Source: Treponema sp. (GTDB taxonomy: Bacteria; Spirochaetota; Spirochaetia; Treponematales; Breznakiellaceae). From it: 64,000 nt of DNA. Made by a program: the position numbers and the translations under genes. This document shows positions 2,403-59,004 of the stretch, piece after piece. Below the pieces are notes generated by a model. That model saw only the letters and a program-made list of their open reading frames with translations, was not told the DNA's origin and made no database searches. Each line of letters begins with the position of its first letter. Position 1 is the first letter of the stretch. The stretch is taken from contig WRLF01000003.1 in the NCBI GenBank assembly GCA_009777735.1, forward strand, positions 62,001 to 126,000, read 5' to 3'.

Positions 2403-2431
2403 AATGTAGCGGTTTGGAAGCGGAGTGTAAA
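2403..2431 (-). promoter_or_regulatory. trpS promoter, probably leaderless
   Basis: On the minus strand TTTACA (2431-2426), a 17-base spacer and TACATT (2408-2403) lie 7 bases from the trpS ATG. A normal start point about 7 bases after the -10 would fall on the ATG. Inferred from pattern only. Confidence 0.55.
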
Positions 2432-2446
2432 GGGGACTGAAAAAGT

Positions 2447-2467
2447 GAATAGGGAATAGGGAATAGG
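2447..2467. repeat. heptanucleotide tandem repeat (GAATAGG x3)
   Basis: Three perfect copies of GAATAGG, with looser 7-base units on both sides (about 2426-2474). The array lies between trpS and the DUF1016 remnant, and the trpS -35 box falls in its degenerate edge. One of several heptad arrays in the window, each with a different unit. Confidence 0.85.
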
Positions 2468-2514
2468 GCAAGAAATAGTCTGGGTGTATAACATTGTTAA
2501 ACGGAAGAAATGTT

Positions 2515-3285
2515 TTAATTACCAGGGGGCAGGGATGTAATATTCGACAATTCTGTAAGTTCGCGAAGCTTGTTTTGAAGCAGTTTCTTGTCAGGTAACT
2601 TGGCAGTATATTCGGCAACAAGCACCGGCGAAAGATTGCGTTGTATGGCATACTCGACAACTTCATCATCCTTGTCTGCACATAGGATAATACCTACACT
2701 TGGATTTTCATTGTCCTTTTTATGATCTCTATCAAGGGCTTCAAGATAAAAATTCATTTTTCCTATGTATTCCGGCTTAAAAGAAGTCGTCTTTAACTCA
2801 AAGGCGACCATACATGATAAGCCCCTATGGTAAAAAAGTAAATCTATGAAGAAATCTGATTTGCCCACTTGAACCCGGAATTGTTCGCTGATAAAAGAAA
2901 AATCCTTCCCGATTTCCAGCAGGAAGTTTTTCATATTTGTAATAATTGCTTTTTGCAGTGTTGATTCATTATGAGATTCCGGCAGATTGAGAAAATCAAG
3001 GACATAACTGTCCAGGAACTGATTCTTTATCTCTTGTTTTACAGGTAGGTTTGTAGACTTTTTTTCCCTTATTGTTTTTCGTTCGAACCGCATCGCATCA
3101 AATTGCCGTTCCAGTTCCCGAAATGAGTGTTTTTCCTCGATGGCTAGTTTGATATAAAAAAGCCGTTCTTCGTCGTTTTTGGCACGGCTCATAACAAGGA
3201 GATTATTAGACCATGATATTTCTCTCAACAGTGTTGAGAGAAATTCGTTATCTTTATAGGTCTCATAAAATTGCACCCCTGGCAA
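2515..3285 (-). CDS. DUF1016/YhcG-type PDDEXK nuclease, N-terminally truncated
   Basis: The 256-residue product matches the second half of DUF1016 proteins: the Q-F-Y-E-x-Y-K-D-N-E segment, the E-[IL]-x-W-S-x-N-L-L region, the E-R-Q-F/I-D segment, and a C-terminal PDDEXK-like nuclease core with D (FFIDLLFYHR) and E-L-K (VAFELKTTSF). Full-length family members have roughly 100 more residues at the N-terminus, carrying a predicted DNA- or partner-binding domain. Here the similarity begins abruptly at the TTG start, and the frame upstream closes at a stop near 3325 inside a C-rich heptad array. The gene is therefore probably a 5'-deleted remnant rather than a functional nuclease. It could still be translated from the TTG, but no Shine-Dalgarno sequence is visible. 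Confidence 0.75.
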   Translation of the reverse strand: MPGVQFYETYKDNEFLSTLLREISWSNNLLVMSRAKNDEERLFYIKLAIEEKHSFRELERQFDAMRFERKTIREKKSTNLPVKQEIKNQFLDSYVLDFLNLPESHNESTLQKAIITNMKNFLLEIGKDFSFISEQFRVQVGKSDFFIDLLFYHRGLSCMVAFELKTTSFKPEYIGKMNFYLEALDRDHKKDNENPSVGIILCADKDDEVVEYAIQRNLSPVLVAEYTAKLPDKKLLQNKLRELTELSNITSLPPGN

Positions 3286-3319
3286 GAAGCAGATTTCAGC
3301 TGTCTTGTAAAGTTGCCCC

Positions 3320-3347
3320 AGCCCCTAGCCCCTCACCCCCCTCCCTT
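3320..3347. repeat. heptanucleotide tandem repeat (AGCCCCT type)
   Basis: Four consecutive 7-base units: AGCCCCT twice, then CACCCCC and CTCCCTT. The array sits exactly between the truncated end of the DUF1016 gene and the -10 box of the first phosphate transporter gene. Confidence 0.8.
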
Positions 3348-3349
3348 AG

Positions 3350-3355
3350 TACAAT
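3350..3355 (+). promoter_or_regulatory. -10 box of the first Na/Pi cotransporter gene
   Basis: TACAAT ends 6 bases before the ATG at 3362, as at other leaderless-looking starts here. No convincing -35 is seen; the position is occupied by the heptad array. Confidence 0.4.
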
Positions 3356-3361
3356 GACCCA

Positions 3362-5032: not shown

Positions 5033-5044
5033 GCAGGGAGTATT

Positions 5045-6712
5045 ATGGATTTAATGGCATTGTTACGTATGGCTGGCGGCCTGTGCATGTTCCTCTTTGG
5101 TATGAAGATTATGAGCGAAGGGATACAGCGGAGCGCCGGCGACCGTCTCAGAAGAACATTGAATTTTATGACCGGTAACCGTTTTTCCGGAGTATTGACC
5201 GGTTTTGCGGTTACCGCTATTATTCAGTCTTCATCGGCAACTACTGTCATGGTGGTTTCCTTCGTGAATGCCGGGTTGTTAACCCTGGCTCAGTCAATCG
5301 GGGTTATAATGGGCGCCAATATCGGCACCACTGTTACTGCGTGGATTGTGTCGCTGCTGGGGTTTTCGCTAAATATTTCCGATTTAGCCCTGCCTGCTGT
5401 GGGAATCGGCTTTGTCATGAGCATTGCAAAGTGGAAACATAAAAGCATTGGTGAAGTTGTTCTGGGATTCGGTTTTTTATTTATGGGATTGTTTTATCTT
5501 ACCCAGGAAATGAGCTTAATCAATCATTTGATAGATTTTAATATTATTGGCACTTTTCGCGATATGGGTTTTGGGGCTGTATTGATTGGCGCAGGCGCCG
5601 GGCTGGTAATGACCATGCTGCTACATTCATCCAGCGCAACCACAGCAATAACGCTGACCATGGCATTTAACAATATCATTACTTTCGAGATGGCTGCCGG
5701 AATGGTGCTTGGTTCCAATGTCGGTACGACCGTTGACGCTGTGTTAGCTGCAATTGGATCAAAAACTGCGGCAAAACAGGCGGCGCTTGTCCATGTATTG
5801 CTTAATGTCATCGGTACGTGCTGGGCCTTGCCTCTCTTAAGGCCGCTGTTGGCGCTTGTTGCTGTTTTAACGCCGGCAGACCCTGTCGGTGCGGGGGCAA
5901 CCATGCATCTTGCCATGCTGCATACGGTGTTTAATTCAATAAATGTTATTTTATTTTTACCTTTTGTCGAACAATTCTCAAAACTGGTTTCTGTTATTAT
6001 TCGCGATGCGCCGGAAGGGGAAAACAGGCAATACAAGTTTGCTTACCTTGATTCCCCCAGAACCGGAACGCCTGAACTCAATATATTGCGTGCAGAAAAA
6101 GAAATTCGTGATATGGCGGGTATTGTATCGTCTATGTATGCCGGTTTTTGTACCTTTCTGCGGGACCTGCACGAAACAAGCGATAAGGAAAACGCCGTTG
6201 GTAAACTTTTGGAAGAGTTGAAACAACAGGAAAATTATGTTGATGAAATGAGGGAAACGCTTACCGCTTTTTTAATAGAATGTACCCGCAAACAGCTTAA
6301 TCCCCGTTCCGAGCGCCGGGTTTCGCGCCTCTTGCAGATTACCGGCGACATTGAAGAGATGAGCGATGAATGTTACGGTATAAGCCGTCTGCTGGAAAGA
6401 AGTGTGCGGAAAAACAGGATGTTCAAAAAAGAAGAAATTGACGATCTGGTTCCCTATGTAAATCAGGTGGAAGAATTCCTCTGCCTCCTGCATGAGAAAC
6501 TGGGGCAGGGCATGTCTGTCACTTCAACCATTCTGTCCAAAAAGGTGGAGACAAACATCACAAAATCGCGCAAGCAGCTCCAAAAACTCAGCCGTAAGCG
6601 CATTGAAGCAGGCAAAGATGTTCAGACAGAACTGCTCTTTATTGATCTTGTCCGTCGCATCGAAAAACTTGGAGATTATTGCGTTAATATTGCGGAAAAG
6701 TTGTCGGGGTAG
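5045..6712 (+). CDS. Na/Pi cotransporter family protein with PhoU-like domain (tandem paralogue)
   Basis: A 555-residue paralogue of the preceding gene, alike throughout: the same opening, the same IQSSSATTVMVVSFVNAG and LHSSSATTAITLTMAFNN motifs, and a C-terminal PhoU-like domain that is nearly identical in the last 60 residues. The two genes arose by tandem duplication. They differ most in the loops between membrane segments and in residues about 300-380. GGGAG lies a few bases before the ATG, unlike the first copy. Two copies could form a heteromer or have different affinities; nothing in the sequence decides this. Confidence 0.9.
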   Translation: MDLMALLRMAGGLCMFLFGMKIMSEGIQRSAGDRLRRTLNFMTGNRFSGVLTGFAVTAIIQSSSATTVMVVSFVNAGLLTLAQSIGVIMGANIGTTVTAWIVSLLGFSLNISDLALPAVGIGFVMSIAKWKHKSIGEVVLGFGFLFMGLFYLTQEMSLINHLIDFNIIGTFRDMGFGAVLIGAGAGLVMTMLLHSSSATTAITLTMAFNNIITFEMAAGMVLGSNVGTTVDAVLAAIGSKTAAKQAALVHVLLNVIGTCWALPLLRPLLALVAVLTPADPVGAGATMHLAMLHTVFNSINVILFLPFVEQFSKLVSVIIRDAPEGENRQYKFAYLDSPRTGTPELNILRAEKEIRDMAGIVSSMYAGFCTFLRDLHETSDKENAVGKLLEELKQQENYVDEMRETLTAFLIECTRKQLNPRSERRVSRLLQITGDIEEMSDECYGISRLLERSVRKNRMFKKEEIDDLVPYVNQVEEFLCLLHEKLGQGMSVTSTILSKKVETNITKSRKQLQKLSRKRIEAGKDVQTELLFIDLVRRIEKLGDYCVNIAEKLSG

Positions 6713-6758
6713 GGGTAAAATGCTTTACTCGCAGCTTCCCTGGACACATTGTTTGCAC

Positions 6759-6764
6759 TATAAT
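6759..6764 (+). promoter_or_regulatory. -10 box before the phosphoesterase-rubrerythrin gene
   Basis: A consensus TATAAT stands 7 bases before the ATG at 6772, with only a weak -35 candidate (TTCCCT) 17 bases further upstream. There is no Shine-Dalgarno sequence, so the transcript may start at or next to the ATG. Confidence 0.45.
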
Positions 6765-6771
6765 GTGATTC

Positions 6772-10610: not shown

Positions 10611-10614
10611 CAGG

Positions 10615-10635
10615 GAAAAGTGAAAAGTGAAAAGT
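10615..10635. repeat. heptanucleotide tandem repeat (GAAAAGT x3)
   Basis: Three perfect GAAAAGT units between the ATPase and permease genes. The permease GTG start codon lies inside the array and the array fills the space between it and its GGG-containing Shine-Dalgarno candidate, so copy-number change would alter spacing or the start. Confidence 0.85.
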
Positions 10636-11700
10636 GTAAAAATTAGCATAAATTCTTTACTGCAGACAGGGGCTATAGCGATTTTTGCTCTTGCTGTTCT
10701 TGCCGTGTTTGTCTGCCTGATCAGCAAAACTCCGGGCAGAACGCTGTACTTTTTTTTCATCGGCCCTTTTCGCAATGTGTTTAGTTTTGGCAATACGCTG
10801 AACAGCGCCGTTCCCTTGATACTCGGCGCTTTGGGCATCAGCATTGCAATGAAAGCAGGCAGCCTGAACCTTGGAGGAGAAGGGCAAATTTACTCAGGTG
10901 CGTTTATCGCGACAATTACTGCCCTTCCGCTCGCAAGCATTGGTTTTTTTGGGGGAATTATTGCCATTCTTGCCGGTGTATTTTTTGCCGGGACTATGGC
11001 TGCATTGTCAGGTTTTTGCAAGGCACGGTGGAATACAAATGAACTTATTACATCTTTTCTGCTGTCAAACGCGATGATATTGATAGTCAATTATCTGGTT
11101 AACGGTCCTTTCCTCGATCCCGAAACAAATTTACAATCAACAAAAAAAATTGCGGAAAATCTCAGACTGCTGCGGATATTACCGCCGTCATATTTAAGCA
11201 CCGCTATAATAATCGCTTTTGCATTTGTCTTAATTGTGCATGTTTTTCTCAAGGATACAAAACTTGGTTATGAATACAGAATGACCGGAGCCAATGAAAT
11301 GTTTGCCCGGTACGGAGGAATTAACACCCGTTTGCATACTGTGATGGCAATGTTTTTAAGCGGAGCGTTGTACGGGCTTGCGGGTGGACTTGTTGTTTTT
11401 GGCACTCATTATGCGACATTAAAGGAATTTACTGCGGGGCTCGGCTGGAACGGCCTAGCTGCGGCGCTTGTAGCGGGATTTTACCCTCCGGCGGTTATAC
11501 CGGCAAGCTTTTTTTTCGCATGGATTTCTTCCGGGGCGAGAATTGCAATGCAGAATTCAGACATTACGTATGAGGTTGCCTCTGTCGTGCAGGCGGTGAT
11601 TTTCTTTCTTGCTACCAGCACAGTATTATCCGGCTTGCTTGCAAGACGAGGCTTGCTTGCAAGACGAGATGTCTTTGGCAAAAAAGGACGGAAGCAATGA
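10627..11700 (+). CDS. nucleoside ABC transporter permease (first)
   Basis: A 357-residue inner-membrane permease of the branched-chain amino acid/nucleoside class (BPD_transp_2). About nine hydrophobic segments are visible; G-A-L-G-I-S-I-A-M-K-A-G-S-L-N-L-G-G-E-G-Q near residues 60-80 is the family hallmark for BMP-linked permeases. The start is a GTG lying in a heptad repeat; a stop codon just upstream leaves no earlier option. The C-terminus carries a short duplication (G-L-L-A-R-R twice) encoded by a 14-base direct repeat. It overlaps the second permease gene by 4 bases (ATGA). It pairs with that protein to form the channel. Confidence 0.88.
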   Translation: MKSVKISINSLLQTGAIAIFALAVLAVFVCLISKTPGRTLYFFFIGPFRNVFSFGNTLNSAVPLILGALGISIAMKAGSLNLGGEGQIYSGAFIATITALPLASIGFFGGIIAILAGVFFAGTMAALSGFCKARWNTNELITSFLLSNAMILIVNYLVNGPFLDPETNLQSTKKIAENLRLLRILPPSYLSTAIIIAFAFVLIVHVFLKDTKLGYEYRMTGANEMFARYGGINTRLHTVMAMFLSGALYGLAGGLVVFGTHYATLKEFTAGLGWNGLAAALVAGFYPPAVIPASFFFAWISSGARIAMQNSDITYEVASVVQAVIFFLATSTVLSGLLARRGLLARRDVFGKKGRKQ

Positions 11701-17087: not shown

Positions 17088-20000
17088 TCCTTTTTTCCTT
17101 TTTTCCTTTGTTTCGCGGCGGTTTTTGCTGCTGTGGGCTTCGTTTTTGCCTTTGCCGGTTTTGCTTTTGCCGCTGCAGGTTTCGCTTTAGCTGCCGCAGA
17201 TTTTGTTTTTGCTGTTGTAGGTTTCGCTTTTGCTGCTGCAGGTTTTGCTTTTGCAGTTGTGGGCTTCACTTTTGCTGCTGTAGGTTTCGCTTTAGCAGTT
17301 GTGGGCTTCACTTTTGCTGCTGAAGATTTCGCTTTTGCTGTTGTAGGTTTCGCTTTTGCTGCCGCAGGTTTTGTTTTTGCCGCTGCAGGTTTCGCTTTAG
17401 CTGCCGCAGGTTTTGTTTTTGCTGTTGTAGGTTTCGCTTTTGCTGCTGTTGGCTTCGCTTTTGCCGCTGCCGGCTTCGTTTTTACTGCCGCAGTTTTTGC
17501 TTTAGCCGCTGTGGGCTTCGTTTTTGCTGCCGCAGGTTTTGCTTTTGCTTTGCTGGATTTTGCAGAAGACACTTTTTCCGCAAGAGGAGATTCGCCTGCC
17601 AGCAGGTGAATAAGTCTGTCAATCCGGTAACCGGATGCTGCCTGCGCTTTTTTCATAGCATCGGAAATTCCGGCAATGTGCGCTGCCCGTTCAAGCCATG
17701 GCGCCGAAGTGCCTAAGGCAGAATCATCTTCCAAAACACAGAACAATGTTCCGTAGAACAGGGCGTTTTCAAATGCTTCTTTGTTGAACCAGGTAATATC
17801 ATTGAAAATATTTATCCCGACGATCCGGCGGAAATCGTCAAGCAAATAATTATTTTCAATAATTAAAGCAGCAAAAACCTCTGGATTAAACGGACATTTC
17901 GTCACGTAAGCGCTTGTGTCAACGGCAGCCGTCCGGCTCAACACCATCCGGCTGATTTCCCCAAACCACCAGGCTTCGTCGCCGGAAGCGCCGAAATTCA
18001 TATATTGTTCCCTAAGTTTGCGATCCAGGTTCCAATGCACAAAAGCAAGATTTTCTGCATGCGCACCACTGGTGTTTTCACCGATGCTCGATCTCAAAAT
18101 CTTCAAAAGCCCATACCCCATCGCCGCAGCGCACACCGCCTGACTCTCTTTTATCTTCCCTGCAAGTTCCTTCAGCATCAACTCTGCCGGAGTCTTTGCG
18201 GTAATTTTCACATAACTCGCCAGTCCAATAACTCGCTCAAGATACGCTCTGAACTCATCCCACAATTCCTCTTTACTCTTTTCTTTTTTACCTTTTACCT
18301 TTTCACTTTTCCCTTCCCACGGTTCATACTTCCCGTCAGCTCCCGTAATAAAATGTTTTACCGTTGAGAAATATTTTTCGGCCTGTTCTTTGAGTGAATC
18401 AACAAAAGATCGTACCTGTTGTTTTTGTGCAATGCTCGATTCGGTACGTGTAACAAAAAAGCCATGAAGTTTATTGATGATTTCCGGCTTGAAGAATTTA
18501 ATTAAACGGTAGTACAGGTCCCCAAGATAAATATCCATGATAGCCGAATGGGGATCATCTACTCCCCGGCCCTGCAAGTCGTGGTTCAGCCGGGCCCAGC
18601 GGCCTTTTTCATCATCCTGAACTTCGTAAATATCGATGAAAACCTGCGCTTCGTATCCGTTAAGAGCAACAAAAAAGCCGTTTTCGTTTATCCCCTTTGA
18701 AGAACGAATGAACCACTGGCCGGAACGCTGGTCTTTGAACAGGGTGAACCAGTTGTCATCCGTATGCAGGGCAAGCGCTGTATGCAGACTGTCACGCCGT
18801 TTCCTGCCATTTTCCGGTATTGCCGGATCACTTGTTTTAATCCATCCGGCCGTTTCGTAATATGAGTTGTTGTAAAAAACCAGAGCCCGTTCTTCGCAGC
18901 CGTTGATCCACGCACGGTTTGAATAGGCAAAAACATTTTCGTTGACCGATCCGCCTTCAGTAAATAAATCGTAGAGTCTGAAATCGCCGCTGCCGGAAAA
19001 CAATGCCCGCCGTTTCATCAGCGGGAAAATTTCCCGTTCATGGCGGTCAACAAGGTATCCGTCGGGCTGTTCATCTCTGTAAGCACGGCGGTATTCCATG
19101 CCGTATTTTTCTTCAAAGCCTTCCACCTGGCCATGCCCGAACATGGGCAGCCCGGGCATGGTGACCATCAGGGTGCAGATGCCAAAGTATTTATCTCCTT
19201 TGCCGAACTGGGCCACCGCAGTATCTTCATCGGGATTGTTCATAAAGTTGACAAATCGTTTGAGGATTTCATGATCAAATTCCAGGGTGTTTTTTATAGT
19301 GATTCTGTATTTTGCATTATCTTCATTTTTCAGCATGTTCATAAATGCCGAATTGTAAACACGGTGCATGCCGAGGGTTCGAACAAAGTATCCTTCCATC
19401 ATCCAGAATGCTTCTGCAAGGAGCAGGGTGTGTGGAGCATCGGCAGCGCATCGATCCACCACTTCACGCCAAAACTCATCAGGGATGCGGCGGTTAAATT
19501 CTTCATTGGTAATGCTGTGCTCTGCGCGGCTGGCAATGTCTCCGCCCTGTCCCGGTGCAGGATACCACAGCCGCTGAATGTGCCGTTTTGCAAGGGTCAT
19601 CGCGGCATCGAAACGTACGATTGAAAACTGCTGACACACTCCGATGATCGTGCGTATCACCGCCTCGCGGGCTTCGGGGTTGAGAAAATCAATTTGGGCA
19701 GTATCGTTCCACGGCATGGATGTGCCGTCGTTGCCGTGGTATATGTAACGGGTTTCGCCGGTATGGTTGTCGATTCTTCTGAAGACCACTGCCGCATCGC
19801 TGCGGGAAAAATATTTATCTTCGATTTGTACGGTGACATCGCCCCTGCCCGATAAATTCTCGCAATTAAATGTATAACCGGGAAATGGCGAGTAAGGAAG
19901 CTGGAGAAAACGGTCGGGATTCTCTATCATCCAACGGCTGTCCAGGCCGGTGTGGTTCGGTACCATGTCGGAACCAAGCCGTATACCCCGTCTCATGCAG

Positions 20001-23555: not shown

Positions 23556-24977
23556 TTAATTCCCCATCAATAACCGGATCAGATGTGATTCATCGTTAAT
23601 TGCTCCAAGGGAACGAATCCTTGAAAGGCCCTGCAGAAACCCGTAACGCGATCTGATGTAGCTGTTGCGGCTGTTGATAAGCAGAGTGGCAGCTTCATTG
23701 AAATCCGTGATGGAACTCTGTAAAAGCCGGTAGCGTTCACTGACATACTCAAAGTGTCTTTCGGTATATTCCAGGGATAGTCGCGAATGAAGAACCGATC
23801 CTGCCGAGGAAAGGACATTCAAAAAAGCGCTTTGCAGTTCTGTTTCCAGGTTTATTTCAGCGCTTATGTAATCCAGCATTGTTGAATCGCGGGAGATTAT
23901 ATTCCTTTCAATCCTGTTATTCATTACCCAATAATCCATGGGAATGCTCCCCCTGACGGAGACTCCCCCTCCGGCAGTAGTACCAAATCCGGCAGCGGTT
24001 GAATAATTAACTGTTGTTCCGAAAATGGTTGCGCTTACCACAGGTGCATAATCTCTTCTTGCAAGAGAAAGATTTCTTTCAGCCCTTTGATTGTTAAGCG
24101 CCGCCCTTGCCAGCGAAGGATTCCCCGCTGTAACAACATTCCATAATCTGTTATACAACATGATGGCATCATCATCGGGAATTCTTGCAATGAATTGCAG
24201 CATTTCCTCATAGGCATCAAAGTTTATCTGCTCCAGCTCAACATCAAGGCTCAGGCCGGTAAGTGCCCGTAGCCTTGTCTTGTTCAGGGAAAGATTTCGC
24301 TGCGCCTGATTGCGGGAATTTTCCCGTTCTTCCCTGTCTGCCATTGCTCTGAGCATTTCGCCTGTGCTTATCATCCCGCTTGTATGCCGGATCTCTGCAA
24401 TTGCAAAGCTTGCAAGAGCCGATTGAAAAGAAGATTCGGCGGCTTCAAGCGTTGCAGCCGCTTCAAGTACGGCATAGTAGGCATTGTCCGTTGCGTCAAG
24501 TACGCTGAAGTATTCGGCCAATGCTTCATTCCTGACACTTTCCGTTGCGATTGCACTGATGGCTTTTTGAATTAGACCTTTTCCTCCCTGAAATAATATT
24601 TGGGTTATGGAGAAGTCAAGCCCCGCGGTAAAAGTGTCAACAGGATTAACAAATTCCCAGTTTCTGCTCATGTAGTTTATTGAAGCGCTGTAACCGGCTG
24701 AAACCGAAGGCAGCATTGAGTATAATTGGCTTTTTTCATCAAGCAAACTGTTTTGTATTTGCATATTATATTTCGCCAGGCTTCGTGAATTTGCCAATGA
24801 CAAAACTCGTACCTCTTCAAGACTGATGGTCTGCGAAAACAAATGAAAAGTGAAAAGTGAGAAATGAGAAGTAAATAAAATGAGAAAAAACATTACCCTC
24901 AGTCTGCTACCCGGCAACCAGCAGCGCTTTCGAACAACAACTCTGTTCTCTGTTCTCTGTTCTCTATCGCCTGTCAT
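23556..24977 (-). CDS. TolC-family outer membrane efflux protein
   Basis: Outer-membrane channel partner of the MacA/MacB-like pump encoded upstream. The body shows two OEP-type halves of long helices separated by strands, with typical phrases such as S-L-E-E-V near the mature N-terminus and repeated A-x-x-x-L-x-x-A-x-x-x-Y patterns. The N-terminus is coded within heptad repeats: with the ATG at 24977 the n-region is long and arginine-rich, while the ATG at 24893 gives a short signal peptide, cleaved near F-S-Q. AGAGG lies before 24977, but it too belongs to the repeat. The start is therefore uncertain. It is last in the five-gene efflux operon. Confidence 0.85.
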   Translation of the reverse strand: MTGDREQRTENRVVVRKRCWLPGSRLRVMFFLILFTSHFSLFTFHLFSQTISLEEVRVLSLANSRSLAKYNMQIQNSLLDEKSQLYSMLPSVSAGYSASINYMSRNWEFVNPVDTFTAGLDFSITQILFQGGKGLIQKAISAIATESVRNEALAEYFSVLDATDNAYYAVLEAAATLEAAESSFQSALASFAIAEIRHTSGMISTGEMLRAMADREERENSRNQAQRNLSLNKTRLRALTGLSLDVELEQINFDAYEEMLQFIARIPDDDAIMLYNRLWNVVTAGNPSLARAALNNQRAERNLSLARRDYAPVVSATIFGTTVNYSTAAGFGTTAGGGVSVRGSIPMDYWVMNNRIERNIISRDSTMLDYISAEINLETELQSAFLNVLSSAGSVLHSRLSLEYTERHFEYVSERYRLLQSSITDFNEAATLLINSRNSYIRSRYGFLQGLSRIRSLGAINDESHLIRLLMGN

Positions 24978-25017
24978 CCCTTACCTCTTACCTCTTAATT
25001 TAAACCTTTTACCTTAC
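24844..25017. repeat. composite heptad element at the tolC start
   Basis: Plus strand: TGAAAAG twice, TGAGAAA and TGAGAAG (24844-24871), about 70 bases of non-repeat core, then eleven consecutive 7-base units (24941-25017) beginning CTCTGTT three times and including ACCTCTT twice. The purine-rich and pyrimidine-rich arrays face each other around the core. The element covers the tolC signal-peptide region and the last codons of the permease gene. The core resembles that of the element at 46441. Confidence 0.85.
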
Positions 25018-45387: not shown

Positions 45388-47565
45388 ATGAAGCGTTTTT
45401 TTGCTTACCTTAAAACACGGCCCATCGCCGCTGTCTCACTCATTGCATTGTGCGTTATTTACCTTATGATGATCTTTGCCGAATTTTTTGCGCCCTACTC
45501 GCCTAACACGTCATTCCACGATAATAGTTATCACCCGCCCAATGTGCGCATCCATCAAGGAAAATTACAGGCGCAGGAACACCGGCTTACCAATGTCGTG
45601 CGGGGCAGATATGTCCGAATAGCAGATCATTACACGCCCATTCAATTTTTCGGCAAAGGCGAACCATACCGCTTATGGGGAATCATCCCCGCCCAGCGCC
45701 ATTTCCTGACCACCGCGCCCGATTCCTATCCGGCATTTCTCATGGGTACCGACAATCTGGGCCGCTGCATGTTTTCCCGGATCATCTACGGCGCCCGCAT
45801 CTCGCTGACCATTGGGTTTGTCGCTACATTCATGTCTCTGGCGTTAGCCGTTCTTTTCGGCGGGCTTGCCGGTTATTACGGCGGCGCGGTTGATTGGTCG
45901 ATCATGCGTTTTGCCGAATTCCTCATGCTGATCCCCGGTTTGTATTTAATTCTTTTTTTACGATCCCTCATGGCAACTACAATGGACACCGGCCAGTCGT
46001 ACATGATGATAACATTGATCCTCTCCCTCATTGGCTGGCCCGGTTCGGCGCGCACCATACGCGGCATGACCCATGCGATCAAGCGCGAGGAATTTGTCCT
46101 CAATGCCCAGCTTGAGATGATCCCTTCTCCGCTTATCATCCTCAAGTTTATCATCCCCCATATCGCCAGTCTGTTAATCGTCAGCATCGCCCTGAGTATC
46201 CCCGGTTTTATCATGACCGAAACCGTCCTCTCCTACCTCGGGCTGGGCATTACCGACCCGGCCGTCAGCTGGGGTTCTCTCATCCGCCGTGACATTCAAA
46301 ACCCCTCGAACCTGCTGGCGTTTCCCTGGTTGCTCAACCCCGTGTGGTTTTTGTTAGGCGTCACATTAGCGTTTAATTTCATCGGCGATGCTCTAAGGGA
46401 TTATTTTGATCCATACCATACTGTTTTTTCTAAGAAAAAAGGGATCAGGGGAAAAAGGGGGATCGGGGATCAGGGATCGGGGATCAGGGATTGTTGTTCG
46501 GAAAACAATGCTGCTTCCGGGTTATCCCCCGGTAGTCCGAATACTGAACCCTGTTCCCCTTCCTCACCCTGGTCCCCGGTCCCTGGTCCCCGGTCCCTGC
46601 TCAATATTACCAACCTGCAAATACACTTCACCGTTCGGCGTGGGAATTCATTTGCACAGGTTCATGCGGTGCGGGGGCTCTCGTTTACGTTGAACAGGGG
46701 CGAGTGCCTGGGTATTGTGGGAGAAAGCGGGTCAGGAAAAAGCGTCAGCACATTGGCGATCCCCGGATTATTGCCTAAAAATGCCGGTGTTTCCGGATCA
46801 ATTCTTTTCGACGGAAAAGAACTGCAGGGGCTGGATCCAAAAGCGCTGCGGGAATACCGGGGGAAAAAGATTGGCATGATCTTTCAGGAGCCGGGACGTT
46901 CTTATGACCCGTTACAACGCATGGACAGTGTATTTTTGGAAACATTCAGGAACAGCGAACCGGACATTACGAAAGAAGAATCGTTAGACAGGGCTGCAGC
47001 ATTGCTGGCTGAAACCGGGCTGGAGCAGGGCAGGGAACGGCTGGGTAATTATCCCCATCAGTTTTCCGGCGGTCAATTACAGCGCATCGGCATTGCACTG
47101 GCATTGGCACAGGGCTGCGAATTGCTGATTGCCGATGAGCCTACCACGGCGTTAGATGTAACGATTCAAAAACAGATTATCGACCTGTTAAAAACCCTGC
47201 GCCGGACGCGGGGCATAACGATCATTTTTATCAGCCATGACATTGAACTGGTAGCGGAAATATCAGACCGTATTATGGTCATGTACGGCGGCATGGAAAT
47301 GGAACTGAACAGCTCGCAGGAAATTCTCAACAATCCGGGGCATCCGTACACGAAAGCACTGCTTGCCTCTTCGCCGCGCTTTGGCAGCCACTACTCGCAG
47401 GAACGGCTCTCCGCCATCCCCGGCAAGATCGGCGACGGCACAGAAGCAGGCTGCCCCTTTGCCCCCCGCTGCGTACAGGCTAAAGATCAATGTTTTAATG
47501 AATTGCCGCCGCTTGCGGTATCCGGCAGCCTGGAAATTAGGTGCAACTTGCCCGGCAAATCCTGA
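45388..47565 (+). CDS. OppC permease fused to OppD ATPase
   Basis: A single 725-residue ORF. Residues 1-about 348 are an OppC/DppC permease (M-G-T-D-N-L-G-R-C-M-F-S-R, then G-S-A-R-T-I-R-G-M and the final G-D-A-L-R-D-Y-F-D-P that normally ends OppC). Residues about 405-725 are an OppD ATPase: Walker A G-E-S-G-S-G-K-S near 445, signature F-S-G-G-Q-L-Q-R, Walker B L-I-A-D-E-P-T-T-A-L-D and the C-terminal zinc-like C-P-F-A-P-R-C...C motif. The 56-residue glycine/proline/serine linker is coded by heptad repeats and contains no ATG or GTG in frame. No OppF-type second ATPase follows, so either the OppD half dimerises or OppF is elsewhere. Confidence 0.85.
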   Translation: MKRFFAYLKTRPIAAVSLIALCVIYLMMIFAEFFAPYSPNTSFHDNSYHPPNVRIHQGKLQAQEHRLTNVVRGRYVRIADHYTPIQFFGKGEPYRLWGIIPAQRHFLTTAPDSYPAFLMGTDNLGRCMFSRIIYGARISLTIGFVATFMSLALAVLFGGLAGYYGGAVDWSIMRFAEFLMLIPGLYLILFLRSLMATTMDTGQSYMMITLILSLIGWPGSARTIRGMTHAIKREEFVLNAQLEMIPSPLIILKFIIPHIASLLIVSIALSIPGFIMTETVLSYLGLGITDPAVSWGSLIRRDIQNPSNLLAFPWLLNPVWFLLGVTLAFNFIGDALRDYFDPYHTVFSKKKGIRGKRGIGDQGSGIRDCCSENNAASGLSPGSPNTEPCSPSSPWSPVPGPRSLLNITNLQIHFTVRRGNSFAQVHAVRGLSFTLNRGECLGIVGESGSGKSVSTLAIPGLLPKNAGVSGSILFDGKELQGLDPKALREYRGKKIGMIFQEPGRSYDPLQRMDSVFLETFRNSEPDITKEESLDRAAALLAETGLEQGRERLGNYPHQFSGGQLQRIGIALALAQGCELLIADEPTTALDVTIQKQIIDLLKTLRRTRGITIIFISHDIELVAEISDRIMVMYGGMEMELNSSQEILNNPGHPYTKALLASSPRFGSHYSQERLSAIPGKIGDGTEAGCPFAPRCVQAKDQCFNELPPLAVSGSLEIRCNLPGKS
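46441..46599. repeat. composite heptad element bridging oppC and oppD
   Basis: Left array of 7-base units (46441-46489, ATCGGGG and ATCAGGG alternating at its end), about 75 bases of core and transition, then a right array (46565-46599) of CACCCTG and GTCCCCG/GTCCCTG alternating. Left and reverse-complemented right units match except T/C at one position, so the arrays could pair. The core starts TTGTTGTTCGGAA, like the core at 24940 on the minus strand. Confidence 0.88.
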
Positions 47566-49336: not shown

Positions 49337-49680
49337 GAGCGGGAAATCATGGTTGATTAACCCGCCCTCAAGGGCAGGGATATAGCAAGGCCGTATGCCT
49401 TATATCAAATATATTTTGGAAGAAACAGCGGATATATTGTATTATTTTTGATAAATCGTGCTTGTTAAGTAGTTTGTATAGTTGACATAAATCTAAGTGG
49501 TAGTTTTCATATAATTGGGAGCTTGCGACAAGGATAAAGGATAAAGGGAAACTCTGCCTTGCAGGTGTAAATAATAACCATTGAGAAAATACTACCAAAA
49601 ACCAAAAAAATTGTCCATCTGTACAAACAACCTACTATCATTTTTTGTAACCCCTGATATGATGCCCTGGAAACCAGGCC
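49337..49680. other. gene-free AT-rich interval
   Basis: No convincing gene. It contains CCCGCCCTCAAGGGCAGGG (a small hairpin) and an imperfect palindrome GATATAGCAAGGC/GCCTTATATC at 49379-49406. The rest (to 49680) is AT-rich; short ORFs here lack ribosome-binding sites and family features. A promoter for the minus-strand lipoprotein is expected but not clear. Confidence 0.5.
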
Positions 49681-53643: not shown

Positions 53644-53652
53644 CCGCTTCTC

Positions 53653-55923
53653 ATGGATGAACTTTTTTCTGCAAGACACACTGAAAATACCGGGAGTAAC
53701 AACATCCATACAGAAACACGCCCTCTTGCCGACCGGATGCGTCCGCGCTTTCTTGAGGACATAATAGGCCAGGACCATATTGTTGGACCGGGCCGGCTGT
53801 TACGGCGTGCCATTCAGGCTGACCGCCTCTCTTCTGTCATTTTTTACGGGCCTCCCGGTACCGGTAAAACCAGCCTTGCGCGGGTTATTGCCAATACCAC
53901 CCGTGCTGCGTTTGAAAGCCTTAACGCCGTACTTTCCGGGGTAAAAGACATACGTGCCGCCATTGACCGCTCTGATGAACGTTTCCGGCTGTACAGCAAG
54001 CGCACGATTTTATTTGTTGACGAGGTGCACCGATGGAACAAAGCGCAGCAGGACGCCCTTCTGCCCTGGGTAGAAAACGGTACGGTAATCCTGGTAGGGG
54101 CAACCACGGAAAACCCTTTCTTTGAAGTGAACCGCGCCCTGGTTAGCCGCAGCCGAATTTTCCAGCTTAAATCGCTTACACCGGATGACCTGCTGGAAAC
54201 TGCCCGTAAAACCATTGCCGACACAGAACGCGGCTACGGCAACTGGATGGTGAGTTTCGAAGAGGGAGCACTTGAGCATCTTGTCGCAGTTGCCGGTGGT
54301 GATGCCCGCAGCCTGCTGAACGCACTGGAACTTGCCATAGAGACAAGCCCCTCACACTGGCCCCCGCCCCCCGGCACAGAAATTTACATCTCCATGGAAG
54401 CCGCTGAAGAAAGCATTCAGCGCCGGGCTGTACTGTACGATAAAGACGGCGATTTCCACTTTGACACGATCAGCGCGTTCATCAAAAGCGTCCGGGGCAG
54501 CGACCCTGATGCAGCCCTGTACTGGCTGGCAAAAATGGTTCGGGCCGGAGAGGATCCCAGCTTTATCTTCCGGCGTATGATCATCCTTGCCAGTGAAGAT
54601 GTGGGCCTTGCTGATCCTCACGCCCTGTCTGTCGTCATTTCCTGTGCTGAGGCGTTTGACCGCATCGGCTTTCCTGAAGGCAATTTTCCCCTTGCCCATG
54701 CCTGCCTGTACCTTGCTACCGCGCCCAAGTCCAATACCACCCTTGCCTTTTTTGACGCGCGGAAAGAAGTTGACCGCGAAGATGCCGAAGTCCCCAACCA
54801 CCTGCGCGATGCAAGCCGTGATGCGGAAGGGTTTGGCCACGGGGAAGGGTACATGTACCCCCATGCGTACCGTAACCATTGGGCTGCCCAGCAATACCTC
54901 CCTACTGCTTTGAGGGGCAGGACTTTTTATATTCCCTCTATTGTGGGTTACGAAGGAAAAATCCGCGAAGAAGTACTGCAAAAACGGGAATTACAGGCTG
55001 CTGTTGTATTAGGAGACGAGAACAACAACGCCGGTGGGGAATTGTTAAGCTGGTCAGCAGCAGCAAAAGGGAGAGAAGGATGGTTTAGGCGTCTGGAATC
55101 AAGCAGAAGTGCATTGTTATTATCTGACCGGAACGCTCTGTTTAACGCAGCATCTCCGGCACGGCATGACCGGGTGCTTATTCCCCTTGCAGAAGACGGG
55201 CTTTTGCTGTGGGAAAGCCTGCGCCGCTGTCCCGAAGGCTTAAGTGCGGCATTGGTTGGCAGTGAAACAGCCCGTGAAACCCTGCTCCGTTATTCGGCAG
55301 CGCTGGATAAAATCGAACAACCGGAAATTGCCGTTCTGGATGCCGCCTTGCTGCTCTCCCCAGCCCAGGCAGCAGAATGGTTTTCCTCTCCTGTGTTTGA
55401 CCGAATACTGATTCGGGAACCACGAAAATATCTTCAAAAAGATACAGCTTTTTTTGATATTGCATCTTCCGCGCACCCCCTGCTTGCCACCGGCGGTGTG
55501 TTGGTTATGCTGCTTTCGCCGCCCAGTTTCGGCGAACGCATTTCTCGCATCCTCATGGAAGCAAGTGGCAATGAAGAATTATCAGTTAAACTTAGTGAAG
55601 CGGAAACCGCTTTTTTCTCACAAAACGCAGATTCACAGCCAGACGGCTGGAATTGGAATCTTAAAAATCTGCAAAAAGCCTTTGATTCGAAGGGTTTCAA
55701 GGTAAAAACCGAAACAATAGAGCAGCAGGAAGAACGGCTTATCGGCTCAGGGGACATAGACGCCTGGTTTGACCGGGAAAACTCCCGTTGGGGCAAATTT
55801 ATGGGGAAAACACTCGATTCCGGCGATTTTTCGCAAGTAGAACACTGTTTACGACAGCGGATTCAGGCTGGCCCCCTGAAATGGAAGTGGAAAAGCGTGT
55901 TATTTCATGCAAAAAAATTGTAG
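53653..55923 (+). CDS. rarA: RarA/MgsA recombination ATPase with C-terminal extension
   Basis: A 756-residue protein. Residues about 25-440 are RarA: R-P-x-x-L-x-D-I-I-G-Q, Walker A G-P-P-G-T-G-K-T near 65-72, Walker B I-L-F-V-D-E-V-H-R-W, sensor 1 G-A-T-T-E-N-P-F-F-E and the tetramerisation region ending G-R-T-F-Y-I-P. RarA acts at stalled forks. Residues about 450-756 are extra; they have the alternating strand/helix look of a class I methyltransferase (R-V-L-I-P-L-A-E-D-G-L-L-L-W, F-D-R-I-L-I-R-E, G-G-V-L-V-M-L-L-S-P). A similar 'RarA/unknown domain fusion' is annotated in other bacteria. The start has no Shine-Dalgarno sequence. Confidence 0.88.
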   Translation: MDELFSARHTENTGSNNIHTETRPLADRMRPRFLEDIIGQDHIVGPGRLLRRAIQADRLSSVIFYGPPGTGKTSLARVIANTTRAAFESLNAVLSGVKDIRAAIDRSDERFRLYSKRTILFVDEVHRWNKAQQDALLPWVENGTVILVGATTENPFFEVNRALVSRSRIFQLKSLTPDDLLETARKTIADTERGYGNWMVSFEEGALEHLVAVAGGDARSLLNALELAIETSPSHWPPPPGTEIYISMEAAEESIQRRAVLYDKDGDFHFDTISAFIKSVRGSDPDAALYWLAKMVRAGEDPSFIFRRMIILASEDVGLADPHALSVVISCAEAFDRIGFPEGNFPLAHACLYLATAPKSNTTLAFFDARKEVDREDAEVPNHLRDASRDAEGFGHGEGYMYPHAYRNHWAAQQYLPTALRGRTFYIPSIVGYEGKIREEVLQKRELQAAVVLGDENNNAGGELLSWSAAAKGREGWFRRLESSRSALLLSDRNALFNAASPARHDRVLIPLAEDGLLLWESLRRCPEGLSAALVGSETARETLLRYSAALDKIEQPEIAVLDAALLLSPAQAAEWFSSPVFDRILIREPRKYLQKDTAFFDIASSAHPLLATGGVLVMLLSPPSFGERISRILMEASGNEELSVKLSEAETAFFSQNADSQPDGWNWNLKNLQKAFDSKGFKVKTETIEQQEERLIGSGDIDAWFDRENSRWGKFMGKTLDSGDFSQVEHCLRQRIQAGPLKWKWKSVLFHAKKL

Positions 55924-55980
55924 CCATTTATAATATTATGTGTTATAATACATAACAACACTTTTACATTAGGGGGAAAT

Positions 55981-56394
55981 ATGCGGAAAGCTACCGCTAA
56001 ACCAGCACAACAGAAAACACAAAAAAATATAAAAAAAGCTTCCGAGACCGCAAAAAAAACTGCCGCTCCAAAAACAGCGGTAAAAAAGACTGCTGCACCA
56101 AAAAAAACTACACCAAAAACAGCAAAAAAACCGGCTGCAACTAAAAAAGCCACTCCAAAGGCAGCAAAGAAACCGGCAACACCCAAGAAATCAACTGCAA
56201 AGACAGCAAAGAAGCCGGCAGCTTCCCCAAAAACCGGTACAAAAACAGTTAAGAAACCGGTTACTACAAAAAAAACCGCACTTAAACCAGAAAAAACAGA
56301 AAAACCGCCCTCAGTGCCATTAGTCCCGCCGTCCATGCCGGTTCAGGATCAGAACACACAGCACAGGCGGCCTTTGATAAACTTTCCCAAGTAG
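55981..56394 (+). CDS. lysine/alanine/proline-rich histone H1-like protein
   Basis: A 137-residue highly basic protein made of K-K-x-A-x-[PK] units over residues 1-105, ending in a proline-rich, uncharged tail. It resembles histone H1-like and AlgP-type proteins that bind DNA through disordered basic repeats. AGGGGG lies before the ATG and a TATAAT is found at 55944-55949. The repeat composition is the same as in the GH13 tail but the period is irregular. Low complexity makes any functional call provisional. Confidence 0.7.
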   Translation: MRKATAKPAQQKTQKNIKKASETAKKTAAPKTAVKKTAAPKKTTPKTAKKPAATKKATPKAAKKPATPKKSTAKTAKKPAASPKTGTKTVKKPVTTKKTALKPEKTEKPPSVPLVPPSMPVQDQNTQHRRPLINFPK

Positions 56395-56402
56395 GAGATT
56401 GC

Positions 56403-57117: not shown

Positions 57118-57124
57118 CGTTTAT

Positions 57125-57153
57125 AGTATAAATCATGAAGGTTGAGAATACAA
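57125..57153 (-). promoter_or_regulatory. promoter of the HI0074-HI0073 pair, probably leaderless
   Basis: Minus strand TTGTAT (57153-57148), 17 bases, TATACT (57130-57125), then 7 bases to the ATG at 57117. Confidence 0.55.
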
Positions 57154-57170
57154 CTTTACATATTGACACA

Positions 57171-58403
57171 TTAACGCCCTGCCAACTCAAAAACATTTCT
57201 GGTAATCAGGGCGGGGCCGAACATTTCCCGCGATAAATTCATAAAAAAATTCACGTTCATTTCATTGTCGCCCTGTGCCCGCCGCCAGTGCTGCGCTGCC
57301 AGTGCATCGGTGTAAACATGCAGCGGGTAAATGCCAAAATTGGTACGCCCCACCTCCGGGTGGCGAGCCGCTTCAAAGTGGGTGATTATGGGAATGAGAC
57401 CTGTTTCTTCAAGGATGATTTCACCGCCGGAAGGGGTTCCGGTTTTGGCAATCTTCACATACATTATTCCGCCCAAAAGCGCTTCTTTGGTAGAGCGGGC
57501 ATGGGAGGACAGAAAATTGCCCAGGGAATAAAACACCGGCATGGGGTTGCCATCGGGCCGGGTAATGATTCTCATGGGCTGCAGCACATGGGGATGATGG
57601 CCAATGACCAGATCAACCCGGTGTTCGGCAAGGAAAGCGGCAAGCCGTTCCTGTTCCCTGTTGAAGTTCAGATTGTATTCCTCACCCCAGTGCATGGATA
57701 CGACAAGGTAATCGCAATGGGGGCGCAGCGCGTTTATTTCCGCCGCCATTGTTGTCTGGTCTATCATGGATACGAGGTAGGATCTGCCTGCAGGAAAAGG
57801 AATGCCGTTCGTGCTGAATGTGTAGCCAAGAAAACCAACGGTGATATTGCTTATATCCAGAACAACCCGGCGGTTGGCACGCTCATGCGCACTGCGGTGT
57901 ATGCCCAGGTGATACACGTGGTCATAGTTGTCAAGATATTCAATGCTGGACATGACACCCGCCGCCCCTCTGTCCAATGCGTGATTGTTGGCAAAGTTGA
58001 TCACATTAAAACCTGCCGCTACCACTGCAGTACCCACTTCAGGCGGCGAAGAAAAGCGCGGATAGCCGGAGAATCCCAATGCTTCATTTCCCAGGATAGT
58101 TTCCTGGTTGATAAACGCAATATCCGCAGGCAGTATGTAGTCCCTGATATGGTCAAAGATATAATGAAAGTTGTACGCACCGTCTGTAAAACTGGCAAGA
58201 AAAATGGGATGATGGATGAGGTTATCTCCAACAGCTACTATGGTTAGATAGTCTTTCTGAGGCGCAGAGGCAATTGCAATTTCCGGCGTTGCCCGTTCTG
58301 TAATTTTCGCAGCCGGAGGGAGATACCCGGTACAGATAAACAATACCAGTAACGTGCCAAGAAGAGTTACCGGCATGGTTCTTTTTATCCGTAAGAGTAA
58401 CAT
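57171..58403 (-). CDS. CapA-family metallophosphatase-like protein
   Basis: A 410-residue membrane-anchored or exported protein of the PGA_cap family, named after the poly-gamma-glutamate synthesis protein CapA. An N-terminal hydrophobic helix lies at about 10-30. The metallophosphatase motifs are V-G-D-N-L-I-H-H, I-N-Q-E-T, F-A-N-N-H-A-L-D-R-G, S-M-H-W-G-E-E-Y and G-H-H-P-H-V-L-Q. In most bacteria the role of this family is not known; no capsule genes are nearby. The start at 58403 has a -10-like TACATT 5 bases upstream; an ATG at 58376 is a possible alternative. Confidence 0.88.
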   Translation of the reverse strand: MLLLRIKRTMPVTLLGTLLVLFICTGYLPPAAKITERATPEIAIASAPQKDYLTIVAVGDNLIHHPIFLASFTDGAYNFHYIFDHIRDYILPADIAFINQETILGNEALGFSGYPRFSSPPEVGTAVVAAGFNVINFANNHALDRGAAGVMSSIEYLDNYDHVYHLGIHRSAHERANRRVVLDISNITVGFLGYTFSTNGIPFPAGRSYLVSMIDQTTMAAEINALRPHCDYLVVSMHWGEEYNLNFNREQERLAAFLAEHRVDLVIGHHPHVLQPMRIITRPDGNPMPVFYSLGNFLSSHARSTKEALLGGIMYVKIAKTGTPSGGEIILEETGLIPIITHFEAARHPEVGRTNFGIYPLHVYTDALAAQHWRRAQGDNEMNVNFFMNLSREMFGPALITRNVFELAGR

Positions 58404-58408
58404 ACTTT

Positions 58409-58438
58409 AATGTACTGTGAATTATATGGAGTAAACAA
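58409..58438 (-). promoter_or_regulatory. possible capA-like gene promoter
   Basis: Minus strand TTGTTT, 18 bases, TACATT, then 5 bases to the ATG at 58403. Confidence 0.35.
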
Positions 58439-58451
58439 GGGGTGAATTTCC

Positions 58452-58480
58452 TTGCCGAATCTGGTGTTTTTTCGTATATT
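58452..58480 (+). promoter_or_regulatory. promoter of the aspartic-protease-like gene
   Basis: TTGCCG, 17 bases, TATATT; followed by AGGAG (58490) and the ATG at 58503. Confidence 0.55.
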
Positions 58481-58502
58481 GTTACAGACAGGAGAATATA
58501 TA

Positions 58503-58916
58503 ATGGGATTAGTGTATGAAAACATCACCTTAAAAAATGCTACGGATGTCGGGAATAGTGTTCGTGGTATCATCCAGGAGGGAGAAGTCCGCCAGATAAA
58601 GGTGTTGGCTATGGTCGACACCGGAGCAGAAACGCTCGTAATTAACGAAGCCATGCGGCAGGAGTTGGGGCTAACAGTGATTGGAGAACGTCGTGTTGGC
58701 CTGGCCAATAATTATGGCGAAATGTGTCAATTCACCGAACCGGTAATGATTTACTGGAAAGATCGTCCTGCCGTTACCCATGCAATTGTTCTACCGGGGG
58801 CAACCGAAGTTCTTCTGGGAGCTATTCCCCTTGAGGAAATGAACGTAATGATAGACCCGCGAAGCCAGCAGTTGGTTGGCATTCACGGCGATGAAATAAT
58901 TTATAAAGTTAAATGA
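58503..58916 (+). CDS. clan AA retropepsin-like aspartic protease
   Basis: A 137-residue protein with the D-T-G-A motif of aspartic proteases (A-M-V-D-T-G-A-E-T-L-V-I near 39-50) and the later V-L-L-G-A-I-P-L-E flap/core strand with M-I-D-P, as in bacterial clan AA proteins that act as dimers. No signal peptide, so cytoplasmic. AGGAG lies 8 bases before the ATG at 58503; the upstream in-frame codon at 58452 lies in the promoter. The substrate is unknown. Confidence 0.82.
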   Translation: MGLVYENITLKNATDVGNSVRGIIQEGEVRQIKVLAMVDTGAETLVINEAMRQELGLTVIGERRVGLANNYGEMCQFTEPVMIYWKDRPAVTHAIVLPGATEVLLGAIPLEEMNVMIDPRSQQLVGIHGDEIIYKVK

Positions 58917-58990
58917 ATCCGGTAACAAATTAAAAAGTTAAGAAACACCGCCTTGAAAGAAATCACGTAAAGCCCTCAAACAACAGCACT

Positions 58991-59004
58991 CTCAATTCTC
59001 AATT
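58991..59004. repeat. heptanucleotide repeat (CTCAATT x2) at the murJ stop
   Basis: Two perfect units; the murJ stop codon lies inside the second. On the minus strand the array leads to GTGCTGTTGTTTG, recalling the core of the composite heptad elements. Confidence 0.6.

Follow-up and report, generated by a model that had tools for sequence, protein, structure and literature searches.

Seven-base tandem repeats in a Treponema genome are probably the arms of small mobile hairpin elements

The genome of Treponema sp. (GenBank assembly GCA_009777735.1) contains tandem arrays of seven-base units (heptamers), several of which lie in a stretch of 64,000 nucleotides that is referred to here as the window (contig WRLF01000003.1, positions 62,001 to 126,000 of the forward strand). 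These arrays are probably the arms, or single remains of the arms, of small mobile hairpin elements, and one complete element of this kind is situated in the window within an open reading frame (ORF) for oligopeptide transport proteins. In a complete element, the core is preceded by an array of purine-rich heptamers and followed by one of pyrimidine-rich heptamers. Two kinds of core occur: a short one of about 65 bp, which is the form found in the source genome, and the gene for the four-helix protein IVP/S23, known from the intervening sequences of 23S rRNA. The host ORF and the element in the window are as follows:

45388..47565, plus strand: host ORF of 725 amino acids (aa), OppC and OppD in one frame, the element forming the linker
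46441..46612, plus strand: complete hairpin element of the short form, separating the OppC part of this ORF from its OppD part in frame
46458-46491: purine arm of the element
46487-46551: core of the element
46567-46599: pyrimidine arm of the element

The ORF matches the Pfam domains OppC_N/BPD_transp_1 before the element and ABC_tran/oligo_HPY after it, so OppC and OppD are joined with the element as their linker. The predicted RNA fold of the element has an energy of -96.9 kcal/mol (z -6.0), with the two arms paired with each other. The terminal inverted repeats form a long hairpin, as in the intervening sequences of ribosomal RNA (rRNA), although this element is located not in an rRNA gene but in an ORF. 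In a close relative (G041; the source genome is G000), the same place in oppCD is occupied by an element whose arms consist of GGGGACT.

An array is defined here as an exact run with at least 10 matched bases past the first unit, which at period 7 amounts to a cut of 17 bp. There are seven such period-7 arrays in the window, compared with 0.1 per order-3 Markov simulation, and 0-2 arrays at each of the periods 4-6 and 8-13 under the same exact-run cut. Thus, the heptamer arrays, which a preliminary description had recognised from the letters alone, are real, and in the comparison it had proposed with periods 5, 6, 8 and 9, period 7 is clearly enriched in the window. Its view of a genome-wide style is borne out by 45 period-7 arrays in 864 kb of the source genome, where periods 4, 5, 6, 8, 9, 10, 11, 12 and 13 have 0, 1, 9, 5, 5, 1, 3, 10 and 0 arrays, respectively. 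Periods 3 (17 arrays), 14 (13) and 21 (25) are also raised, as are 15, 18 and 30; some of these are multiples of seven, and others are probably coding repeats. The 864 kb comprise the window and 40 further stretches, partly picked by matches (seven of the first 20 were picked for earlier matches, and three of the second 20 held core copies already known), and “unbiased” would be too strong a word for this sample. In 300 kb of stretches from four congeners, there is a single period-7 array, and thus the heptamer style is not genus-wide; two of these four have a G+C content that is the same or nearly the same as that of the source genome, or within 5 points of it. The units do not differ each time, as had been described: GAAAAGT is present at both 10615 and 24844, and units recur across the source genome, with AGAGAAC, AAAAGGT and GGGGATC each occurring five times among 55 arrays. 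Units also vary inside individual arrays. The purines do keep to one strand within an array, as described, but the strand flips between the two arrays of a pair.

Several arrays have one common core sequence in their surroundings. A search with window positions 46485-46570 found ten dispersed copies of the core in the source genome with E below 1e-6, and a model built on these ten copies found 12 full copies with E below 1e-8; ten of the 12, which had come from the BLAST search, are therefore copies that built the model by which they were recovered. The count of 12 does not include a partial copy (L130, E 5e-4) or the weaker matches. By eye, all 12 cores have purine-rich heptamers before them and pyrimidine-rich heptamers after them, the second arm being weak in some (for example, the copies in lon, in ileS and at L129). 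The order of the arms is strict. Pairs of opposite arrays within 150 bp of each other are purine-pyrimidine in seven cases in the source genome (69 arrays in 864 kb) and in 30 cases in G041 (113 arrays), and the reverse order occurs in neither. About half of the G041 stretches, most of the second 20, were picked by matches; in the first 20, which were unpicked, there are 28 period-7 arrays, at most 10 arrays at any other period from 3 to 15, and seven purine-pyrimidine pairs with none reversed.

The short element resides in genes that remain open. Each of the 12 full cores, together with 25 bp on each side, lies within an open frame of at least 284 aa: seven with more than 100 aa on both sides, three at the N-terminal end, and two near the downstream end, one of the latter at the end of a contig. 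The hosts of the cores include lon, ileS and oppC-oppD. Taking cores and single arrays together, the hosts identified by Pfam are isoleucyl-, leucyl- and glutaminyl-tRNA synthetases, Lon, transcription-repair coupling factor, a UPF0004/radical SAM protein close to RimO, a histidine-biosynthesis fusion of PRA-CH and PRA-PH, proteins of queuosine synthesis, apolipoprotein N-acyltransferase, MutL, a helicase, carbamoyl-phosphate synthase, leucyl/phenylalanyl transferase, hybrid kinases, and ABC transporters. The sites within these hosts are linkers, gaps in conserved domains, and N-terminal leaders. Compared with solved homologues, the insert in Lon comprises residues 367-402 (36 residues in place of a 2-residue gap, shortly before Walker A), that in isoleucyl-tRNA synthetase (IleRS) residues 222-261 (40 in place of 5), and that in an ABC exporter residues 370-408 (39 in place of 2); leucyl-tRNA synthetase (LeuRS) of G041 aligns with the solved enzyme through residue 392 and resumes at 530, with residues 393-529 in place of 4. 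Thus, the host protein gains about 35-140 residues and its frame stays open. Relative to ORFs of at least 250 aa, the 69 arrays of the source genome are internal in 26 cases, N-terminal in 23, C-terminal in one, and outside in 19, compared with 1268, 181, 194 and 357, respectively, for 2000 random positions; for the 113 arrays of G041 the numbers are 49, 16, 1 and 47. Several arrays read in the pyrimidine sense encode stretches that by eye resemble signal peptides. Two other observations concern the same hosts: in G009 (C83, 4405-5793) the Lon match is split into two pieces within a frame of 873 aa, suggesting another in-frame insert elsewhere in Lon, and a second family of in-frame inserts (PLPPSAG..PPATPP) occupies the same loop of IleRS at L179, L173, L183 and L181 (G009, G049, G041 and G020).

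Within the genus, the core model has matches at E <= 0.1 in 10 of 39 genomes, the source included, with most in G000, G040 (19), G041 (17), and G009, G047 and G049 (3 each). Outside the genus, a model of the short core (R1) at E <= 0.001 found nothing in the 295 other genomes of a 296-genome sample of the phylum under stricter filters. The units are specific to the species: the main exact units in 716 kb of G041 are GGGGACT (45) and AGGGACT (18), neither of which is in the list for the source genome. Insertions are present in both species in lon, oppCD, two loops of ileS, lnt and leuS, each with the unit of its own species, although the core at a shared site is not always the same; at queA there is an array in G000 only. 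Alleles were compared at the level of species. In the BcrAD/DUF2229 gene, G047 has a short-core element and G009 the form with an IVP gene, at what by eye is the same site.

The IVP form is best seen in leuS of G041, where the arms enclose a full ORF belonging to the family 23S_rRNA_IVP (PF05635, E 5.7e-42; TIGR02436), whose nearest solved chain is 2gsc (XCC0516); the insertion has a predicted RNA fold with z -4.8 in which the arms are paired. Elements of this type are present in leuS of G041, G047 and G020 and in the BcrAD/DUF2229 gene of G009. In all four, the host frame continues uninterrupted across the IVP gene, each time in the same alternate frame (KDL type), and three have both arms, G020 having the downstream arm only. 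PF05635 is above the cut-off in seven of the 39 genus genomes, and 12 genus loci were taken up (L347 and L352 being left out). Among these, L351, L353 and L356 have no paired arms, and L349 stops at a contig end and holds undetermined bases. At L354, L355 and L357, genes that by eye are Avd-like stand next to repeats resembling the variable regions of diversity-generating retroelements (DGRs), also by eye.

Nine loci have a host ORF that spans the IVP gene, uninterrupted, in a second frame: the four KDL-type loci and five further ones, whose hosts are an MmeI-type enzyme, an N6/N4 methylase (L390, with a Pfam domain on one side only), a hybrid kinase, a type ISP restriction enzyme, and the alpha subunit of DNA polymerase III; among these five, arms were detected for the MmeI and type ISP cases only. 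Of the 69 IVP loci from outside the genus set described below, seven have an alternate frame that is open over the body of the IVP gene, and in five it extends at least 90 aa on both sides (aa on the two sides: L388 500/93, L390 172/152, L400 496/499 with one stop inside the IVP gene, L359 500/499, and L372 500/498). It is shorter on both sides at L375 (32/33) and on one side at L423 (25/489). The open alternate frames of L372, L375 and L423 are less surprising in view of their high G+C contents (69, 65 and 75%, respectively).

The unit of the window array at 24941 leads to other phyla. Three tandem copies of it, in the form GAACAGR, occur in at least 115 stretches, and among the 80 listed loci, by record titles, are cyanobacteria, Acidobacteria, Bacteroidetes, Verrucomicrobia, Clostridia, Gemmatimonas, Phycisphaerae and Halieaceae. 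The resemblance to the short tandemly repeated repetitive sequences (STRR) of cyanobacteria, which had been noted from the window alone, extends to the unit itself, which recurs among the listed loci in cyanobacteria and seven other phyla. The other arrays in these 80 loci number 138 at period 7, 47 at period 14, and 2-26 at each of the periods 4-6 and 8-13. The units of other phyla are broader than the idea of a GANNRGG consensus would allow. PF05635 is over the cut-off in 23 of the 27 genomes reached via GAACAGR arrays, in 44 of the 296 genomes of the own phylum, and in none of 14 controls.

Arrays are concentrated at the IVP genes themselves. The 69 IVP loci comprise 29 from the own phylum, not picked for repeats (30 were fetched, of which L350 was already in the genus set), 30 from several phyla, and 10 of 40 plasmid records, picked for variety. 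Period-7 arrays lie within 250 bp on both sides of 42 of these genes (13/29, 21/30 and 8/10 in the three sets, respectively) and on at least one side in 23/29, 23/30 and 8/10. In the own phylum there are 53 arrays in 14.2 kb within 250 bp of IVP genes and 8 in 54.8 kb beyond 500 bp; in the several phyla, 55 in 14.7 kb and 15 in 54.5 kb; and on plasmids, 19 in 5.0 kb and 7 in 19.6 kb. The density near the 69 genes is thus about 16 times that beyond 500 bp. For the control gene trpS, there are 3 arrays in 14.6 kb near and 4 in 55.1 kb far, and arrays on both sides in none of 30 loci. Near IVP genes, periods 5, 6, 9, 10 and 11 have 0-2 arrays, and period 8 has 1, 7 and 5 in the own phylum, the several phyla and the plasmids, respectively. 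When the two arms are compared at the 45 both-armed loci (the 42, plus three from the genus), the downstream arm is similar to the upstream unit in inverted orientation in 40 and in direct orientation in nine, with mean similarities of 0.82 inverted, 0.20 direct, and 0.07 between loci. One plasmid locus (L424) is a true 23S rRNA gene with an IVP element and heptamer arms inside it; in an Rfam scan of six IVP loci, it alone lies in LSU rRNA. Among 12 pattern stretches from viral contigs, there was no relative of IVP. On plasmids of Nostoc, Anabaena, Pseudanabaena and Picosynechococcus (L418, L421, L422 and L426), one IVP gene separates nrdB from nrdA, two lie between cas6 and cas4, and one lies between cmr2 and cmr3, where the flanking repeats look by eye like period 8.

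Thus, IVP genes stand between arms, hosts are entered in frame, arm pairs are ordered, units are specific to species, and the predicted folds are hairpins; we conclude that a single class of hairpin element comprises many heptamer arrays, these insertions and the intervening sequences of rRNA. Several observations weigh against this. Most arrays in the source genome (55/69), and 53/113 in G041, have no opposite neighbour within 150 bp; single arrays may be remains of arms, but their number lowered our confidence from high to somewhat less high. Arrays are rarer in gene interiors than random positions are (26/69 compared with 1268/2000). PF05635 was not found in the source genome, which is 83% complete, nor was an IVP/S23 ORF found in the short forms; such an ORF is present in some congeners and many phyla. 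There are 27 of the 69 IVP loci without arrays on one or both sides, and among the dual-frame loci L390, L400 and L372 have no arms and L350 has one. Period 8 is raised near IVP genes in two of the sets (7 arrays compared with 1 far away, and 5 compared with 0), so seven is not absolute. The 27 genomes reached via GAACAGR arrays had been selected for carrying heptamer arrays, the majority of the genomes are drafts, and records of the source genome may be left out of named collections. An RNA pairing drawn inside the 65-bp core received no support from covariation, was often equalled by shuffled sequences, and differs from the predicted consensus structure of the core; what is suggested for RNA structure is the pairing of the arms only. 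Finally, no enzyme that moves the element was identified and no movement was observed.

If the arrays are arms, the IVP forms would be the parent elements and the short forms dependants resembling miniature inverted-repeat transposable elements. The element would spread as one unit, recombination or re-insertion may keep the arms of one species uniform, and selection would retain insertions that allow read-through or removal at the RNA level. The kinship between IVP and Avd, a protein of DGRs, makes it a reasonable guess that a reverse transcriptase acts in a step through RNA. Slippage probably edits the length of the arms after insertion.

The preliminary description had taken a shared period without shared sequence as the mark of a specialised polymerase copying in seven-base steps. 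This idea does not survive the comparisons: the same units come back at several sites of one species, and corresponding sites in two species carry different units; opposite pairs are purine-pyrimidine in 37 cases and reversed in none across the two species, and they frame a common core or an IVP gene; and both arms of an IVP locus share one unit. Plain replication slippage, in which seven nucleotides correspond to the footprint of the polymerase and arrays grow from chance doublets anywhere, is unlikely as the whole explanation. In most genomes with many long simple repeats, heptanucleotides are reportedly the most frequent class, for which such a footprint was proposed (Mrazek 2007, as cited in the available text of PMC4692102 and PMC4679880), units vary within arrays, and most arrays of the source genome are single; however, slippage does not explain the array pairs, with their strict order and one common unit per IVP locus, nor the common cores, the clustering at IVP genes, and the few dominant units that each species has at unlinked sites. 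Rather unlikely, too, is templated end addition, in which a telomerase- or DGR-like reverse transcriptase, with IVP as an Avd-like partner, would extend both 3′ ends of a break with a G-rich heptamer, the core being captured between them. The purine strand runs inward on both sides in all 37 opposite pairs of the two species, as this would predict, the units are species-specific, and IVP weakly matches the models bAvd and DivGenRetAVD, whereas some IVP arms in other phyla are pyrimidine-first.

That the arrays are regulatory or phase-variation sites, kept for a function such as G-quadruplex formation or control of translation start, is very unlikely. It would suit the excess of source-genome arrays in N-terminal parts of long ORFs (23/69, compared with 181/2000 random positions) and the formation of G-quadruplexes in vitro by GGGAATC-type units (reported in the available text of PMC4692102), but such parts hold only 16/113 arrays in G041, the array at trpS is absent in the congeners compared, and many arrays lie within housekeeping proteins. 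Least probable is that IVP belongs to the host or serves CRISPR as an accessory protein, with the adjoining arrays as its own regulatory sequence. For this speak 18 IVP genes in cas loci (from the portion of PMC3936711 available) and the plasmid loci, two of them flanked by cas6 and cas4 and one by cmr2 and cmr3, against which armed IVP genes are also present in leuS, the BcrAD gene, MmeI-type and type ISP enzymes, and 23S rRNA, others lie between nrdB and nrdA, and still others, with no arms detected, inside dnaE, methylase and kinase genes.

The hairpin element has counterparts among known systems. With the 23S rRNA intervening sequences of Leptospira and Coxiella, which carry an S23p/IVP ORF, it shares the hairpin, terminal inverted repeats, sporadic distribution and, in its IVP form, the IVP gene. 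For Coxiella, the available text of PMC4990558 describes inverted repeats, RNase III, an S23p of unknown function, and tandem heptamers that precede S23p and vary in number between strains; among the matches listed in a literature search of partial coverage, which is no proof of novelty, this is the only paper joining IVP with heptanucleotide repeats or insertion into ORFs. The elements described here differ in that, in several phyla, they occupy protein-coding genes or intergenic sites, that they often carry heptamer arms on both sides, that host frames run through them, and that short forms have no IVP gene. Since the sites are different, the claim that the element works in the manner of an intervening sequence is stronger than the claim that every copy is one. 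Rickettsia palindromic elements are likewise small palindromes in frame inside unrelated genes (PMC10969869), as is the case for 12/12 cores; the likeness is one of description, and the words “heptamer” and “intervening sequence” do not occur in the available text of that review. The unit types are shared with cyanobacterial STRR and with the heptamers of Xanthomonas (GGGAATC) and Nostoc (GGGGA(C/T)T), GGGGACT of G041 being of the type reported from Nostoc (PMC4692102, available text). Tandem heptamers are shared with STRR, which lie genome-wide and mainly between genes; here, 19/69 arrays in the source genome and 47/113 in G041 lie outside ORFs of at least 250 aa. The available part of PMC4692102 reports 70 and 75 convergent inverted heptamer pairs in two Xanthomonas and treats heptamers as simple repeats with G-quadruplex potential; its main text, as available, does not contain “four-helix”, “intervening” or “Xcc0516”. 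TAACTGA repeats are reported from Beggiatoaceae, Cyanobacteria and Bacteroidetes (PMC4679880, in the part available). PF05635 resembles Avd (PMC10053308, in the part available), the accessory protein of DGRs, to which IVP is weakly related as a family, but the insert of about 450 bp in G041 is taken up by the IVP ORF and arms and leaves no room for a reverse transcriptase, for which no search was made. Identity with repetitive extragenic palindromes and their tyrosine transposases (REP/RAYT) was considered and rejected: PF01797 matches do not track the element, and no element stands beside the Y1_Tnp gene of the source genome. Y1_Tnp is present in 17/39 genus genomes, including four of the six with the strongest core matches; the source-genome copy (L010, about 5502-6002) is a single-domain, RAYT-like gene not adjoining an element.

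The other repeats in the window are as follows:

2441..2468, plus strand: single array GAATAGG, upstream of trpS (gene on the minus strand)
3316..3345: imperfect array between a YhcG-like gene and a Na/Pi transporter gene
10612..10640, plus strand: single array GAAAAGT, spanning the start of a permease ORF (GTG at 10627)
18286..18315, minus strand: single array TTTTACC, in frame in the 1371-aa ORF 17084-21199 (KSEKVKGKKEKSKEE)
24841..24997: diverged element (by eye) at the start of an outer membrane efflux gene (OEP in Pfam), with a purine array at 24841-24870, a spacer, and pyrimidine arrays at 24941-24965 (CTCTGTT) and 24980-24997 (CTTACCT)
49530..49547, plus strand: single array AAGGATA, with no long ORF there
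58990..59005: TCTCAAT, 2.3 units, at the end of murJ, not above chance

The arrays first described at 2447, 10615, 24844 and 24941 stand where they were placed, and three others are shifted (18269 to 18286, 46441 to 46458, and 46565 to 46567). The repeat placed at 3320 exists but is imperfect, and the one at 58991 falls under the 17-bp cut and was not counted; those at 24980 and 49530 had been missed. The spacer of the diverged element does not match the core model. The array at 2441..2468 adjoins a sequence that by eye is promoter-like (TTTACA...TACATT). The trpS flanks have no exact period-7 run of 16 bp in 20 of 21 congener loci compared; the remaining locus (L050) has two, at a different place. 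Coding repeats of 21/42 bp are situated at 17123-17549, the end of ORF 17084-21199 (minus strand), and at 56066-56220 in ORF 55981-56394. ORF 6772-8013 combines a metallophosphatase domain with rubrerythrin and rubredoxin-like domains, and 53653-55923 encodes a RarA/MgsA-type ATPase with about 315 extra C-terminal residues without a Pfam match.

On balance, the evidence leans towards a wider proposal: a single, previously unrecognised class of mobile element, in which an IVP/S23 gene lies between inverted heptamer arrays, may be present in at least seven phyla (the own phylum, cyanobacteria, Bacteroidetes, Acidobacteria, Clostridia, Gemmatimonas and Azospirillum, from the record titles of the both-armed loci among L358-L386 and L424) and enter protein genes, rRNA and operons. 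Within a protein gene, one frame of its DNA would encode IVP and another a tolerated insert in the host protein, and the heptanucleotide repeats known from cyanobacteria, Xanthomonas and others would largely be its arms and their remains. If this is true, two old puzzles, the heptanucleotide repeats and the function of S23/IVP, become one testable question, and a single insertion would encode two proteins in overlapping frames within genes such as leuS. The long inserts in Lon, IleRS and LeuRS of such genomes should then be read with the warning that they are the sequence of the element.

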